Source: a virus. From it: a DNA stretch of 24,607 nucleotides. The notes under the pieces were generated by a model. It was not told the DNA's origin and did not search any database. It saw nothing but the letters and a program-made list of their open reading frames with translations. The stretch covers positions 1 to 24,607 of the IMG/VR virus record IMGVR_UViG_3300048925_000613, one strand, 5' to 3'. Below are positions 16,610 through 24,607 of this stretch, in pieces. The stretch's first letter is position 1. Each line of letters opens with the position of its first letter. The position numbers and the translations under genes were made by a program.

Positions 16610-16837
16610 TCATGCAACCTTGGACCCACGCAGGTAGGCCCAATCTATGTCCGGTCGAAGTTCCTCGCAGGTAACCGCCCCATCTGACTCACGTTCGATG
16701 TCTACGGCCAGTCCGGCGGCGGCCCGACGATTGCAGTAACCAACCTGCCGAAGCTGCCCAGCGGTGGTGTTACAGCGCTTCGCAAAGCCGTCGACTGCCT
16801 CCTTGCTTAAACTTTTCAAATATTCGTGCAGGGTCAT
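16610..16837 (-). CDS. Cro-like repressor (YdaS antitoxin-type helix-turn-helix)
   Basis: A 75-aa DNA-binding protein starting MTLHEYLKSLSKEAVDG. The segment FAKRCNTTAGQLRQVGYCNRRAAAGLAVDIER is the helix-turn-helix of the YdaS/Cro-like family, followed by TCEELRPDIDWAYLRG, a C-terminal signature of the family. It would bind operators between itself and CI and favour lytic growth. AGGAG lies six bases before ATG 16837; the earlier in-frame ATG at 16843 has no spacing from AGGAG and is rejected. It is the first gene of the minus-strand early operon and is divergent from CI. Confidence 0.85.
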   Translation of the reverse strand: MTLHEYLKSLSKEAVDGFAKRCNTTAGQLRQVGYCNRRAAAGLAVDIERESDGAVTCEELRPDIDWAYLRGSKVA

Positions 16838-16862
16838 ATGCATCTCCTATCGAAACGAGAGA

Positions 16863-16876
16863 TTAGCAACTGCTAA
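16863..16876. promoter_or_regulatory. Operator O1 (cro side)
   Basis: A perfect palindrome TTAGC-AACT-GCTAA, 26 bases before the Cro-like start. It fits the TTAGC-N4-GCTAA consensus that also appears before the plus-strand early operon. It is the most likely high-affinity CI or Cro site repressing the cro-direction promoter. Confidence 0.7.
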
Positions 16877-16887
16877 ATAATATCGCA

Positions 16888-16916
16888 ATAGCAAACCGTA
16901 ATTTACTGTTTGCTAA
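16888..16916. promoter_or_regulatory. Operators O2 and O3 (CI side)
   Basis: Two imperfect copies of the TTAGC-N4-GCTAA operator, at 16888-16901 and 16903-16916. They face each other as near-identical inverted copies of TAGCAAAC-N-GTAA (12 of 13 bases). The second covers the likely -35 of the CI promoter, which would give autoregulation. O1 and O2 centres are 25 bases apart, O2 and O3 15 bases. Confidence 0.6.
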
Positions 16917-16936: not shown

Positions 16937-17644
16937 ATGGATATCAACGAACTGCGAATCAAAGCGCTACGGCACGCGATGGGCGATCTAAGCCAGAAAG
17001 ATTTCTCAAATCGGCATGGCCTGGATGCTTCCTATCTGTCTCAGCTGCTGAATGGGCATCGAAGCCTGGGCGAGAAAGCTGCTGCCAATCTTGAAGAAAA
17101 GATTGGTCTGTCGCCTGGCACATTGGTCGTGCCTGCGAATATGGACTCGCCTGGACAGCCCCAACCGCCTGTCGATGCTGCGATAGATAAAAAGCAGCTT
17201 ATGGAAGCGTTGGGATTCATTACGATTCCACACCTGAACGTTTCAGGCTCAATGGGAGATGGCAACACCATTGATCACCACGTTGAAGTGATCCGTGACA
17301 TCACGGTGAATTTTGACTGGCTCAAGGCTCAGTCGCTCGCATTCTCCGGCCTCGACAATCTGGCGATTATTTCGGGAGACGGCGACAGCATGGAACCGAC
17401 CTTTCGAAACGGAGACTCACTGCTGGTTGACCGAGGGATTACCTCAATCAAAACCGATGCAATCTATGTATTCACTATTGATGGTGAGCTGTTCATCAAA
17501 CGTCTCCAACGAATGACGAAGGGCTCGCTACTGATGATTTCGGACAACCCAGTCTACAAGCCGATAAAGCTTGAGGGCGCCGATTTAGAAAAAGTGCATA
17601 TCGAGGCACGTGTGTTACTCGTATGGAACGCCAAGAAACTCTGA
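16937..17644 (+). CDS. CI-type prophage repressor (helix-turn-helix plus S24 peptidase)
   Basis: A 235-aa repressor that maintains lysogeny. Residues 1-62 form a lambda-repressor-like helix-turn-helix (KDFSNRHGLDASYLSQLLNG, GEKAAANLEEKIG). Residues about 95-232 are an S24/LexA-type domain: the nucleophile Ser151 in GDGDSMEPTFRNGD and the base Lys188 in ELFIKRLQR are 37 residues apart, exactly as in LexA. The hinge and cleavage loop (IPHLNVSGSMGDGN, 97-110) has no Ala-Gly or Cys-Gly dipeptide, so RecA-stimulated self-cleavage is uncertain. It is divergent from the Cro-like gene with shared operators and is followed by a strong terminator. Confidence 0.92.
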   Translation: MDINELRIKALRHAMGDLSQKDFSNRHGLDASYLSQLLNGHRSLGEKAAANLEEKIGLSPGTLVVPANMDSPGQPQPPVDAAIDKKQLMEALGFITIPHLNVSGSMGDGNTIDHHVEVIRDITVNFDWLKAQSLAFSGLDNLAIISGDGDSMEPTFRNGDSLLVDRGITSIKTDAIYVFTIDGELFIKRLQRMTKGSLLMISDNPVYKPIKLEGADLEKVHIEARVLLVWNAKKL

Positions 17645-17674: not shown

Positions 17675-17699
17675 AAGCCCGCACAACGCGGGCTTTTTT
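17675..17699 (+). terminator. Intrinsic terminator after CI
   Basis: An eight-pair stem (AAGCCCGC / GCGGGCTT, five-base loop) runs into TTTTTT. It isolates CI transcription from the LexA-controlled gene and early operon downstream. Confidence 0.9.
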
Positions 17700-17731: not shown

Positions 17732-17774
17732 TTGCCAATCGTCGGCCTTATTAATACTGTATATAAACACAGTA
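17732..17774 (+). promoter_or_regulatory. LexA box over the promoter of the DUF1654 gene
   Basis: CTGTATATAAACACAG at 17757-17772 matches the LexA consensus CTG-N10-CAG, including the TATAT core, and is flanked by TA and TA to make TACTG...CAGTA. A -35 TTGCCA (17732-17737) is spaced 17 bases from TACTGT (17755-17760), so the box covers the -10 element. The gene should be repressed by host LexA and derepressed in the SOS response. Confidence 0.85.
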
Positions 17775-17790
17775 AACCAAGGAGGTTCCT

Positions 17791-18054
17791 TTGAGCAAAT
17801 CCCAAACCCAGCGGGTAGCCACTTCGATTGAGCTGCTCAGCAACAGGCTGCAGAAGATCATTAACTCACCCGCCGCTCAGAAAAATCGCGCCGCAATCAT
17901 CTATAAAGCGCCAGAAGAGCTGCAGGAGGACTGGGACCAGATCATTGAGGCGATCATCGATACAGATGGAGTCTATGTAACCCAACAGGAGGATGGCGGA
18001 GCCCGGGTTCACTGGGATGTTCCTGACGATTTGGAGTCCAGAAGACGCAAGTAA
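17791..18054 (+). CDS. DUF1654 protein, SOS-controlled
   Basis: An 87-aa protein of the DUF1654 family, small proteins known mainly from Pseudomonas and its phages. It starts with TTG at 17791, five bases after a strong GGAGG. Visible family-like features are the N-terminal helix (IELLSNRLQKIINSPAAQKNRAA), PEELQEDWDQIIEAIIDTDG, and the strand pair YVTQQEDGGARVHWDVP at the C-terminus. Its biochemical function is unknown. It lies alone between the CI terminator and the next operator cluster and is preceded by a LexA box. The neighbouring repressor lacks a standard cleavage dipeptide, so a role as SOS-made antirepressor is a reasonable hypothesis, not shown. Confidence 0.82.
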   Translation: MSKSQTQRVATSIELLSNRLQKIINSPAAQKNRAAIIYKAPEELQEDWDQIIEAIIDTDGVYVTQQEDGGARVHWDVPDDLESRRRK

Positions 18055-18055
18055 T

Positions 18056-18094
18056 TTAGCAACTGCTATTGCAGTTAAATTTAGCTTTTGCTAA
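18056..18094. promoter_or_regulatory. Operators O4 and O5 before the plus-strand early operon
   Basis: TTAGC-AACT-GCTAT (18056-18069) repeats 13 of 14 bases of the cro-side operator, and TTAGC-TTTT-GCTAA (18081-18094) is another perfect palindrome. Their centres are 25 bases apart, as for O1 and O2. Between them is AACTGC-TATT-GCAGTT (18061-18076), a second palindrome. CI probably represses this operon too. A weak -35/-10 pair (TTGCAG 18069, TAATTT 18092) overlaps the sites. Confidence 0.72.
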
Positions 18095-18127: not shown

Positions 18128-18304
18128 ATGCAATGCATAAATCTCAACAAACGCTGCCCTGTGTACCTACACCCGGCAGCAGCTAATCCCCGCACTATCG
18201 CAGCGATCCAGGCCAATACCGGCCTGGTCGTAATCGTCAATATCAAGCGCCGCACCGCTGTTGCTGCCCCCTCCACCAGTCCATGGGGAGGTGACGCAGC
18301 ATGA
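18128..18304 (+). CDS. 58-aa small early protein, unknown function
   Basis: A short gene reading MQCINLNKRCPVYLHPAAA and ending SPWGGDAA. Its stop overlaps the ATG of the dNMP kinase gene (ATGA at 18301), and AAGG lies about eight bases before its ATG. It is the first gene after the O4/O5 operators. The sequence is compact, with one predicted helix (NPRTIAAIQANTG) between two strands (CPVYLHPAA and LVVIVNIKRR), like a tiny beta-alpha-beta fold. I recognise no named family. The coupling, start context and codon use support it as real. Confidence 0.7.
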   Translation: MQCINLNKRCPVYLHPAAANPRTIAAIQANTGLVVIVNIKRRTAVAAPSTSPWGGDAA

Positions 18305-19817: not shown

Positions 19818-20291
19818 ATGCAAAATGAAATCGTCATCACGCTCAGCCTTTATGCGCTTGGCGCCGCACTCCTCGGCTACACCCTCTACCGTGCAGTCAT
19901 GAAGGCATACAGCCGCGGCTACGTCTCTGCCGCCAACGCAGAGCAAGCCCGCTACCAACCGCTGATGCTGGCGAAGACCCTGGCCGTTACGCAGGCATCG
20001 CAACGATTGGATTCCGCACATGAAAAGTTGACCGCCGCTAACGCTGTAATCAACCAGCTGAAAGCCGATAAGGCTCAACTCGTTGCGGTAACCCATCAAG
20101 AGATCGGAGTGCTGGTTCAGGCCGAGAACATGATCAAGCTGGCACATCGGACTTGGGCACCAATGAAGGGGGCTGAGCCTACAGCCCGAAAGGCCGACAC
20201 CGTGCATCAGAAGCTGGTCGAGCTGAACGCACGTTTATCCGCAAACGCCATCCGCGCTTCAGCCGCAGCAGTTCAGGAGCAGGCAGCATGA
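19818..20291 (+). CDS. Membrane-anchored coiled-coil protein, unknown function
   Basis: A 157-aa protein with one hydrophobic segment near the start (VITLSLYALGAALLGYTLY, residues 5-23) and a charged, alanine-rich remainder that looks like a long coiled coil (LDSAHEKLTAANAVINQL and further heptads). It would sit in the inner membrane with the helix in the cytoplasm or periplasm. No enzymatic motif is seen and no family is recognised. Its stop overlaps the LytTR gene (ATGA). Spanin-like or superinfection-exclusion roles are possible but unsupported. Confidence 0.75.
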   Translation: MQNEIVITLSLYALGAALLGYTLYRAVMKAYSRGYVSAANAEQARYQPLMLAKTLAVTQASQRLDSAHEKLTAANAVINQLKADKAQLVAVTHQEIGVLVQAENMIKLAHRTWAPMKGAEPTARKADTVHQKLVELNARLSANAIRASAAAVQEQAA

Positions 20292-20698
20292 GCGCTCATG
20301 AAGTGATCAACCTTGATTACGTGCAGGCTCTTCACCGCCGCAACGTCATCCGCGTGCCCATCGACGAGATCACACACATGCACGCTGACAGCAAGTATGT
20401 GTCCGTCTACCACGATGGCTGCGAGATCCTGCTCCGCACACCGCTTTCAAAGATCGACGAAGTCCTGCGCACGAGGTTCGTGAGAGTCCACCGCAACACA
20501 CTGGTGAACCGGAAACACATCCTTCGCTTTACGCCGCCGAGTAGAAAAACACGCGACCCTGGCTACGTATATGTTGCGGGGCTTGCAGCGCCACTGAAAA
20601 TTTCCAGGCGCCAATTGCCAGACGTCCGCACAGCAGCCGATCAGGCAACCAACTCGCAAAGCAGATGCGGAGAAGCCGTGAATGAGGTGCTGAAATGA
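20288..20698 (+). CDS. Stand-alone LytTR-type DNA-binding protein
   Basis: A 136-aa protein whose residues about 16-115 form a LytTR domain: the first strand RVPIDEITHMHADSKYVSVYH, then RTPLSKIDEVL, then RFVRVHRNTLVNRKHI, the signature F-x-R-(V/I)-H-(R/K)-x-x-(L/I)-V-N motif, and LKISRRQLPDVR at the end. LytTR proteins normally carry a receiver domain; here there is none, so it acts unphosphorylated or as a pure DNA-binding part. In a phage early operon it may regulate phage or host promoters. It is coupled to both the membrane protein and the methyltransferase gene. Confidence 0.88.
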   Translation: MSAHEVINLDYVQALHRRNVIRVPIDEITHMHADSKYVSVYHDGCEILLRTPLSKIDEVLRTRFVRVHRNTLVNRKHILRFTPPSRKTRDPGYVYVAGLAAPLKISRRQLPDVRTAADQATNSQSRCGEAVNEVLK

Positions 20699-22620: not shown

Positions 22621-23448
22621 TTAAATGATGCGATTTGCCAATCCACCGAAATTCGTAAAGGTCAAATCTTTGCACAAACCTTCTAAATCACCATATATCA
22701 CTCTAGCTCCAACACCTAGCGTTATTAATTCCAAATGAATTGAAGCCAAATGCTCTTTTTTAATAAGAATCCTATCTACAGCATTAAGCACCACACCACC
22801 ATGACAACTATTAACTATAGAGAAAACGCCCGATTGAGACCTCAATCTTGGATTCAAATAGTTAGGCGTAACAAGCACATTCACCTCTCCCCCTCCCTTG
22901 GTGCTTTCAAACTCTTCGAAAACATCTACGGACTCCTTACCTTTCTGGAACTTATCAAAGCTGCCCCACTTTACTTCACCTGCCATGACATAAACTACCG
23001 CATCATTTTCAGGCAAGAAAGTTTGGAAGTTAGGGGAAACCTGCTCTGGGGTGCTAGCAGCTGCACGATCAACACTCTCTCCCGTAACCGCCTTATAACG
23101 GACACCGTCCACCGCAAAAAAAAGCGCCACCATTGGCGAGAGTGTCCAATCTAAAAGCCGAGTCGGAAGGCCGTAGTGCTGGGCGAGCGCCAAGATATCC
23201 CAATCGCCTTGTGAGGTTATAGGATGATAAGCATGGTGCTCTGTTTTAAACCTTGAAAATGCGTTTTTCGCGGTTTGAATGGTAGTGTTACCATTTTTTT
23301 TCAGCGCGCGCCCCAGCGAGGAAATCAAAGGCCAACTTGAACTTGCCTGCCCTCTATAAGCTGTACCATAGATATCGTCTTTGTTAATTTCTGCTATTGC
23401 AGCTAAAAATTCTGCAAAGCTACGCACTTCCACCGTTGATTTGTACAT
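22621..23448 (-). CDS. FRG-domain protein, accessory cargo gene
   Basis: A 275-aa protein with an FRG domain: TAYRGQASSSWPLISSLGR at 29-47 (the F/Y-R-G motif with glutamine) and LALAQHYGLPTRLLDWTLSPMVALFFAV at 86-113. The domain's biochemistry is unknown; such proteins recur on mobile elements. The remainder (VVYVMAGEVKWGSF, then a beta-rich C-terminal part) is unassigned. The start ATG at 23448 overlaps the integrase end by 29 bases, with GGGAG seven bases upstream. The gene is clearly A/T-rich compared with its neighbours, suggesting separate acquisition. No phage life-cycle role is apparent, so it is a candidate lysogenic cargo such as defence. Confidence 0.85.
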   Translation of the reverse strand: MYKSTVEVRSFAEFLAAIAEINKDDIYGTAYRGQASSSWPLISSLGRALKKNGNTTIQTAKNAFSRFKTEHHAYHPITSQGDWDILALAQHYGLPTRLLDWTLSPMVALFFAVDGVRYKAVTGESVDRAAASTPEQVSPNFQTFLPENDAVVYVMAGEVKWGSFDKFQKGKESVDVFEEFESTKGGGEVNVLVTPNYLNPRLRSQSGVFSIVNSCHGGVVLNAVDRILIKKEHLASIHLELITLGVGARVIYGDLEGLCKDLTFTNFGGLANRII

Positions 23449-24607
23449 CAATAATCTCCCTACCCCACCAATCCATTAGTTCCGTACGCTCAACTATATA
23501 TTGAGCATGATTATATGCAGACTTTGTTTTATTTTTCTCAACGTGCGCCAGCTGCATCTCTATCACCTCCGCCCTCCACTTGCCAGAGTTGTAAAGATGC
23601 GTAGAAGCAGTCGCTCGAAAATCATGACAGTGCCAGCCCTTCAAGTCCATATATTCCAAAGCCCGGTTTAGTGTGGTCGCACTGATTGGCTGATTAGGGT
23701 GACGCATGCCGGGAAATAAAAGTTTTCCGGCTGTAATGCTCCGCAGCTCCATGAGCAACGTCAACGCTCGGGCTGGCAGCGGTACAAGATGTGGTCGTTT
23801 CATCTTCATGCGAGCAGCAGGGACAACCCAGACGCCTTTATCAAGGTCAATCTCAGACCACTCTGCCAGCCGCAATTCAACCGTTCGCACAAAAAGCAGA
23901 GGCAGCAGGTATAACGCAATGACTGTGATTCTGTGGCCTCCGTATTGCCTCAAGGCAGTGAAGTATTCGTGCAGCTCCAGCAATTCCATCGGACGACTGT
24001 GATTGATCTCTTTACGGGTGATAGCTCCTTTCACCGCCGCTGCAGGATCAGCGTCTGCACGCAGCGTGACAACGCCATAGCAGAACACCGAGGAGATCCA
24101 CTGCCGAACCATAAGCGCCAACGTGGTCGCATCGCGCCTATCCATCGCCGTGATGATCGCCAGGATCTGCGCCGCTGTAATCTCGCGAAGCGGCAGGCGG
24201 CCGATCTTGGGATAGACGTCGTTCACGAATGCCCGCTCGATTTGATCCCGGTACTTCTGCGTGCGTTTAGCTAGCTTGTTTTCGATCCACTCCCGAGCCA
24301 CAACCTTGAACGTGTTGCGATTCTCGACCAGTTGCTGGGCCTTCTGCGTCTGACGCACGTGGGCAGGATTCCGCCCAGCCTTGACCAGGTCACGCGCTAC
24401 ATCGCGCTCAGCCCGCGCTGCAGAAAGGGTTATTTCAGGATAGGAGCCGATGGCATAGACGTTCTCTTTCCCATCGATGCGAAAGCGGTATCGCCAAAGC
24501 TTGGCGCCGTTCACTCGGACTTCCAGGTACAGGCCAGCGCTATCGGTCAGCTTGATGGGCGAATCACCAGGCTTGGCCTGGCGGATTTTGATGTCGGTTA
24601 GGGCCAT
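23420..24607 (-). CDS. int: Tyrosine integrase (P4-type, DUF4102 N-terminal)
   Basis: A complete 395-aa site-specific recombinase whose ATG is the last base triplet of the window. The N-terminal arm-binding region (LTDIKIRQAKPGDSPIKLTDSAGLYLEV) is the DUF4102 type found in P4-like integrases. The catalytic residues are Arg241 in FVRTVELRLAEWSEID, His328 and Arg331 in HDFRATAS, His355 in LAHVEKN and Tyr365 in SAYNHAQY; Lys268/270 may complete the set. It integrates and excises the phage with help from the AlpA-like protein. The attachment site and its promoter lie beyond the right edge; P4-type integrases often use tRNA genes. Confidence 0.95.
   Translation of the reverse strand: MALTDIKIRQAKPGDSPIKLTDSAGLYLEVRVNGAKLWRYRFRIDGKENVYAIGSYPEITLSAARAERDVARDLVKAGRNPAHVRQTQKAQQLVENRNTFKVVAREWIENKLAKRTQKYRDQIERAFVNDVYPKIGRLPLREITAAQILAIITAMDRRDATTLALMVRQWISSVFCYGVVTLRADADPAAAVKGAITRKEINHSRPMELLELHEYFTALRQYGGHRITVIALYLLPLLFVRTVELRLAEWSEIDLDKGVWVVPAARMKMKRPHLVPLPARALTLLMELRSITAGKLLFPGMRHPNQPISATTLNRALEYMDLKGWHCHDFRATASTHLYNSGKWRAEVIEMQLAHVEKNKTKSAYNHAQYIVERTELMDWWGREIIDVQINGGSA

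Follow-up and report, generated by a model that had tools for sequence, protein, structure and literature searches.

The 24,607-nt viral sequence analysed here (IMG/VR record IMGVR_UViG_3300048925_000613, positions 1 to 24,607; hereafter the window) represents a temperate phage whose immunity region carries, beside a CI-type repressor gene, a small gene of the domain family of unknown function DUF1654 with a LexA box over its promoter. Control of this gene by LexA is strongly supported by the sequence, and a role for DUF1654 as an SOS-induced prophage inducer is well supported, this role being largely known already, as reported for its relative PP_3901 of Pseudomonas putida KT2440. We lean towards the explanation that DUF1654 is the prophage's SOS-responsive inducer, the counterpart of PP_3901, and that it relieves repression by CI, most likely as an antirepressor on CI itself. 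The observation is real and conserved, and the function is plausible.

The only zero-mismatch match to CTGT-N8-ACAG in the whole window, CTGTATATAAACACAG, lies at positions 17757–17772 and overlaps the −10 element of a promoter that, read by hand, comprises TTGCCA (17732–17737), a 17-bp spacer and TACTGT (17755–17760) on the plus strand; the box, which the original prediction had described as near-perfect, is thus perfect. A strict sigma-70 scan called no promoter at TTGCCA-N17-TACTGT, and the TTGCC/TTGCG-N17-TACTGT arrangement is conserved among relatives, with the spacing kept in the loci L002, L043, L046 and L047. Downstream, the ribosome binding site AGGAGG (17780–17785, plus strand), also conserved among relatives, precedes by 5 bp the TTG start of the DUF1654 open reading frame (17791–18054, plus strand), where relatives have ATG or GTG. 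The encoded protein of 87 amino acids (aa) matches PF07867 (86 bits, cut-off 27, E 1.2e-24) over most of its length as well as phrog_2707, and its LexA box stands about −31 from the domain start, as it does in the DUF1654/PP_3901 group.

The box is a property of the family. Among DUF1654 genes gathered from named phages, IMG/VR and genomes, a CTG-N10-CAG box occurs at most 75 bp from the domain, at a near-fixed distance, in 116 of 119 non-redundant prophage or mobile copies, and the apparent exceptions (L043, L044 and L122) read CTGTATGTATATACAT at the box position. A weight matrix scored 59 strong sites across 1.64 Mb of retrieved Pseudomonas DNA, 55 of them at DUF1654 genes; since it was trained on DUF1654 boxes, this figure shows the specificity of the association, which is beyond chance, and not LexA binding. 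The domain was present in 129 of 149 sampled Pseudomonas genomes and in none of 228 other gammaproteobacterial genomes sampled, its matches in genome contigs coming from Pseudomonas plus one Azotobacter, and in most loci an S24-type CI gene lies within ~5 kb, in either orientation. Most of the window's clade, though not the whole family, has in addition a LexA2-type palindrome (GTAC-N4-GT[AG]C) at about −80, just 5′ of the −35 (L002, L003, L017, L018, L043, L044, L046–L048, L121 and L122). This site was lost from, or is absent in, the window, where no GTAC-N4-GTGC was found ~80 bp upstream of the DUF1654 gene; GTAC-N4-GTGC is reportedly the motif of LexA2. Evolutionarily, the window copy groups with PP_3901-like and core chromosomal copies, and CI type is clustered on the DUF1654 tree; we did not use this clustering as evidence of an interaction, as linkage alone could produce it. 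As separate observations, L019 (6001–6607) and L020 (5965–6558) each contain two convergent DUF1654 genes of the core-like and PF-tailed subtypes, each gene with its own LexA box, and L010 (3653–3892) and L068 (5656–5892, minus strand) contain a second, diverged DUF1654-like gene divergent from the main one, with a LexA box between the two.

The functional evidence comes from PP_3901. The DUF1654 protein of L046 is 60% identical to that of the window, and because the published PP_3901 primers match this locus exactly (two gene primers and one promoter primer by search, the other by eye), we identify it as PP_3901; its upstream region holds a LexA1 box together with a GTAC-N4-GTGC site. PP_3901 is reported to belong to the LexA1 and LexA2 regulons, to have a promoter that responds to nalidixic acid and to be required for DNA-damage induction of other resident prophage genes (PMC4595014, the last citing Abella 2007). 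The original prediction that LexA controls the window gene and that its product acts in SOS induction of the prophage is borne out to this extent, by the conserved box and by what is published for the relative. PP_3901, which lies in a prophage named P1, resembles the window gene in its domain, in an equally spaced LexA box over the −10 and in its prophage location beside an S24 CI. It differs in having the extra LexA2-type site GTACAAATGTGC, in the rexAB-like and hicBA-like genes that separate it from its CI, and in the CI itself, which is of another S24 subtype with Leu-Gly and a differently built hinge.

In the window, DUF1654 sits between OR-like and OL-like paired operators, within the immunity region. 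A Cro-like, YdaS-family repressor gene (16613–16843, minus strand; PF15943 YdaS_toxin, E 1e-10; phrog_35, transcriptional repressor) heads the leftward early operon, and the cro–cI interval contains an OR-like operator region (16862–16916) with TTAGCAACTGCTAA at 16863–16876 and a second palindrome at 16889–16916. The cI gene follows (16937–17644, plus strand) and is parted from DUF1654 by a terminator-like hairpin (17675–17695, plus strand). Directly 3′ of DUF1654 lie OL-like twin operators (18056–18069 and 18081–18094), the 13-mer TTAGCAACTGCTA being present at both 16863 and 18056, and the twin sites are kept in the relatives L002 and L043; sequence and placement suggest that the predicted operators at 16863 and 18056 are CI/Cro sites. 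Behind them, a 58-aa reading frame (18128–18304, plus strand; phrog_13491) is the first of the rightward operon. In lambda, rexAB occupies the corresponding place between the operators.

Mechanistically, we posit that in the lysogen LexA would keep the DUF1654 promoter shut, and that removal of LexA upon DNA damage would free this separate transcription unit, placed between cI and the OL-like operators, to yield the 87-aa protein. DUF1654 would then lift repression by CI, most likely as an antirepressor that inactivates CI, and both flanking early operons would fire. The sequence itself shows the box, the promoter, a transcription unit apart from cI, conservation across the family and the paired operators; LexA control and the need for the gene in induction are published for PP_3901 (PMC4595014); and an action of DUF1654 on CI, without an intermediary, is what we infer.

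Such a scheme would place DUF1654 near known SOS antirepressors. The Gifsy antirepressors GfoA and GftA and their relatives (PMC3121763) are likewise small LexA-controlled prophage proteins, which place induction under SOS control; in contrast to their systems, the window repressor keeps a full S24 domain, the DUF1654 gene lies inside the immunity region and repressor binding by DUF1654 is putative. Coliphage 186 Tum and N15 AntC are also products of LexA-controlled genes that trigger induction (PMC3121763), and judging from its site and the conservation of that site, DUF1654 probably shares the LexA-repressed gene typical of Tum, AntC and GfoA. Tum, however, is a protein of 146 aa with a DinI-like half, whereas Pfam and PHROG scans of DUF1654 returned no second family.

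The window CI (235 aa; PF00717 Peptidase_S24, E 3e-21) resembles lambda CI and LexA in combining a helix-turn-helix, a CI feature, with an S24 domain bearing the Ser-Lys dyad of self-cleaving S24 proteins, here Ser151 (17387–17389) and Lys188 (17498–17500). It departs from them at the cleavage position, where they have Ala-Gly or Cys-Gly: its hinge reads HLNVSGSMGDGN, with Met106-Gly107 (17252–17257) in their place. Both the dyad and the missing standard dipeptide had been correctly anticipated; the further suggestion that such a repressor is unable to cleave itself was weakened, for the reasons that follow.

Several results weigh against the reading of DUF1654 as an inducer acting on CI. Across 68 non-redundant repressors with Met-, Leu- or Val-Gly at the cleavage position, the catalytic Ser and Lys are each present in 68 of 68 and the P1 residue is Met in 63, against a median S24 column conservation of 60% (12 of 138 columns reach at least 98%), which speaks for a continuing role of the active site; the set was picked by its P1′ Gly, so the Gly column is not independent evidence. 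DUF1654 also stands beside Ala-Gly CIs, as in phages F116, H66, LESphi3 and TC7. Conversely, seven loci (L123–L129) whose CIs are 59–61% identical to the window's lack DUF1654 in the fetched sequence, and scans of 52–72 kb around four of them found no LexA box; L123 (6005–7040) also has an operon otherwise like the window's, and these loci are natural controls on the need for DUF1654. The family also extends beyond prophages: a core-like copy of ~100 aa is present in most Pseudomonas genomes, a LexA box was found at 17 of 18 core loci inspected (L201–L218), the divergent PA7 copy (L211) having none, and in the core locus examined (L204, 9370–10363) DUF1654 immediately precedes an endonuclease I gene (PF04231, E 2e-38), away from any repressor. 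Finally, the requirement for PP_3901 in induction is known here through a citing paper.

The alternative that survives best, although we consider it unlikely, is that CI follows the usual route, cutting itself at Met106-Gly107 with stimulation by RecA, and that DUF1654 only helps or strengthens induction. The invariant dyad, the Ala-Gly CIs accompanied by DUF1654 and the loci L123–L129 all fit, as do phages Marin, phi1 and PfDIW6 and Acidovorax phage AP1, whose Met-Gly CIs have no DUF1654 in the stretch fetched (the host of AP1 lies outside the family's range). Phage phi1, as an aside, has a LexA-like box in its immunity region, CTGTATCTTTATACAG, situated towards cro (L244, 578–593). Against self-cleavage, the characterised S24 cleavage sites named in PMC10020695 and PMC8565304 are Ala-Gly or Cys-Gly throughout, and PP_3901 is reported as required. 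There are also isolated losses within the repressors themselves: the CI hinge of L047 reads SLVPG, the Gly after the cleavage position being lost while DUF1654 and its box are retained, and a CI of another type (L153) has lost the catalytic Ser. On whether the cognate repressor stays uncleaved upon induction, a mark of antirepressor systems of the Tum, AntC and GfoA type, the sequences point both ways: Ala-Gly or Cys-Gly is missing, yet the dyad is invariant and the P1′ Gly is retained in nearly all.

The distribution of DUF1654 across repressor types bears on the same question. In a CI-centred sample, DUF1654 lay within 5 kb of 19 of 28 Met/Leu/Val-Gly CIs versus 3 of 12 Ala-Gly CIs (p 0.018, uncorrected for kinship). 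The original prediction had called for a search for LexA box and DUF1654 beside S24 repressors lacking Ala-Gly; in this sample DUF1654 is commoner there, but it is not confined to them. That DUF1654 occurs only where CI lacks Ala-Gly was ruled out by the four phages named above together with L179, L182 and L186, and the notion that each Met-Gly CI depends on a LexA-controlled neighbour was ruled out by L123–L132, L134, L139, L142, L167 and L169, which have none in the fetched sequence (L145 is uninformative, as its contig ends nearby). The data are thus only partly consistent with DUF1654 as a replacement for CI self-cleavage. A further possibility, which we regard as quite doubtful, is that DUF1654, rather than inactivating CI on its own, is a co-factor stimulating CI self-cleavage at the Met-Gly bond, or else an activator of the early promoters; it would account for the conservation of both the catalytic dyad and the cleavage peptide next to an unusual P1 residue and for the excess with Met/Leu/Val-Gly CIs, but sits poorly with the Ala-Gly CIs that also have DUF1654 and with the differently built Leu-Gly hinge of the CI beside PP_3901.

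A somewhat less likely alternative still is that DUF1654 is an SOS-induced accessory of DNA metabolism common to prophages and hosts, its place beside CI reflecting only tolerance of an SOS promoter at that point of the immunity region. The core copies with their LexA box and, where examined, their endonuclease I neighbour favour this view, as do the C-termini of the family: among 140 distinct DUF1654 C-termini, 80 have Pro-Phe as their last two residues, versus 7 of 4550 long frames outside the family (the 140 are mutually related, so these are not 80 independent events), usually after acidic residues and resembling the C-terminal tip of single-stranded DNA-binding protein (SSB), for example in L038, L053 and L088. 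This tail, however, is absent from the window DUF1654, as it is from the core copies, and a requirement for prophage induction is reported for PP_3901. No solved structure matches DUF1654 by sequence, and a Foldseek search with an AlphaFold model (pLDDT 74) found nothing at E below 0.001 among PDB or viral structures. The model may weakly resemble small alpha/beta nucleic-acid binders, but its VIA-align matches (Smr, R3H, ribosomal S8 and the CodY C-domain; Z 4–5.6) are in the noise range (Z below 6), and it favours none of the rival mechanisms. A DinI-like permuted fold, considered from the order of secondary structure, was dropped on the same Foldseek and VIA-align results, and we make no fold claim. 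Least probable of all, in our judgement, is a two-tier Pseudomonas-wide switch in which core and prophage DUF1654 would act in trans on a lineage of Met-Gly S24 repressors matched to them, whose active site would fire only with DUF1654 bound, leading to joint induction of all resident prophages. Our favoured explanation remains an SOS-responsive inducer that would most likely act as an antirepressor on CI.

Elsewhere in the window, the rightward operon encodes a PrtN-type pyocin activator or excisionase-like protein (PF11112; 19531–19770), the early operon a protein with a LytTR DNA-binding domain (20288–20698), unusual in phage, and adjoining the integrase is an FRG-domain protein (22621–23451) that matches the candidate phage-defence family PDC-S15.

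In the literature searched, the only mention of DUF1654 was a passing annotation. We know of no earlier description of the genus-wide box rule, the core copy, the tails or the Met-Gly repressor lineage. New in this analysis are the family-wide LexA rule, the core chromosomal unit of LexA box, DUF1654 and endonuclease I, the LexA2-type site in the window's clade, the SSB-like tails that many copies carry at the C-terminus, and the paired operators flanking CI–DUF1654. The genus-wide rule, core copy, tails and Met-Gly lineage make the mechanism directly testable, and they raise the question of why a perfect protease active site is kept beside a Met-Gly bond in these repressors. If the favoured explanation is true, a domain to which no function is assigned would become a practical marker of SOS-inducible prophages, and DNA-damage sensing by a large share of Pseudomonas prophages would be explained by this one unannotated domain.
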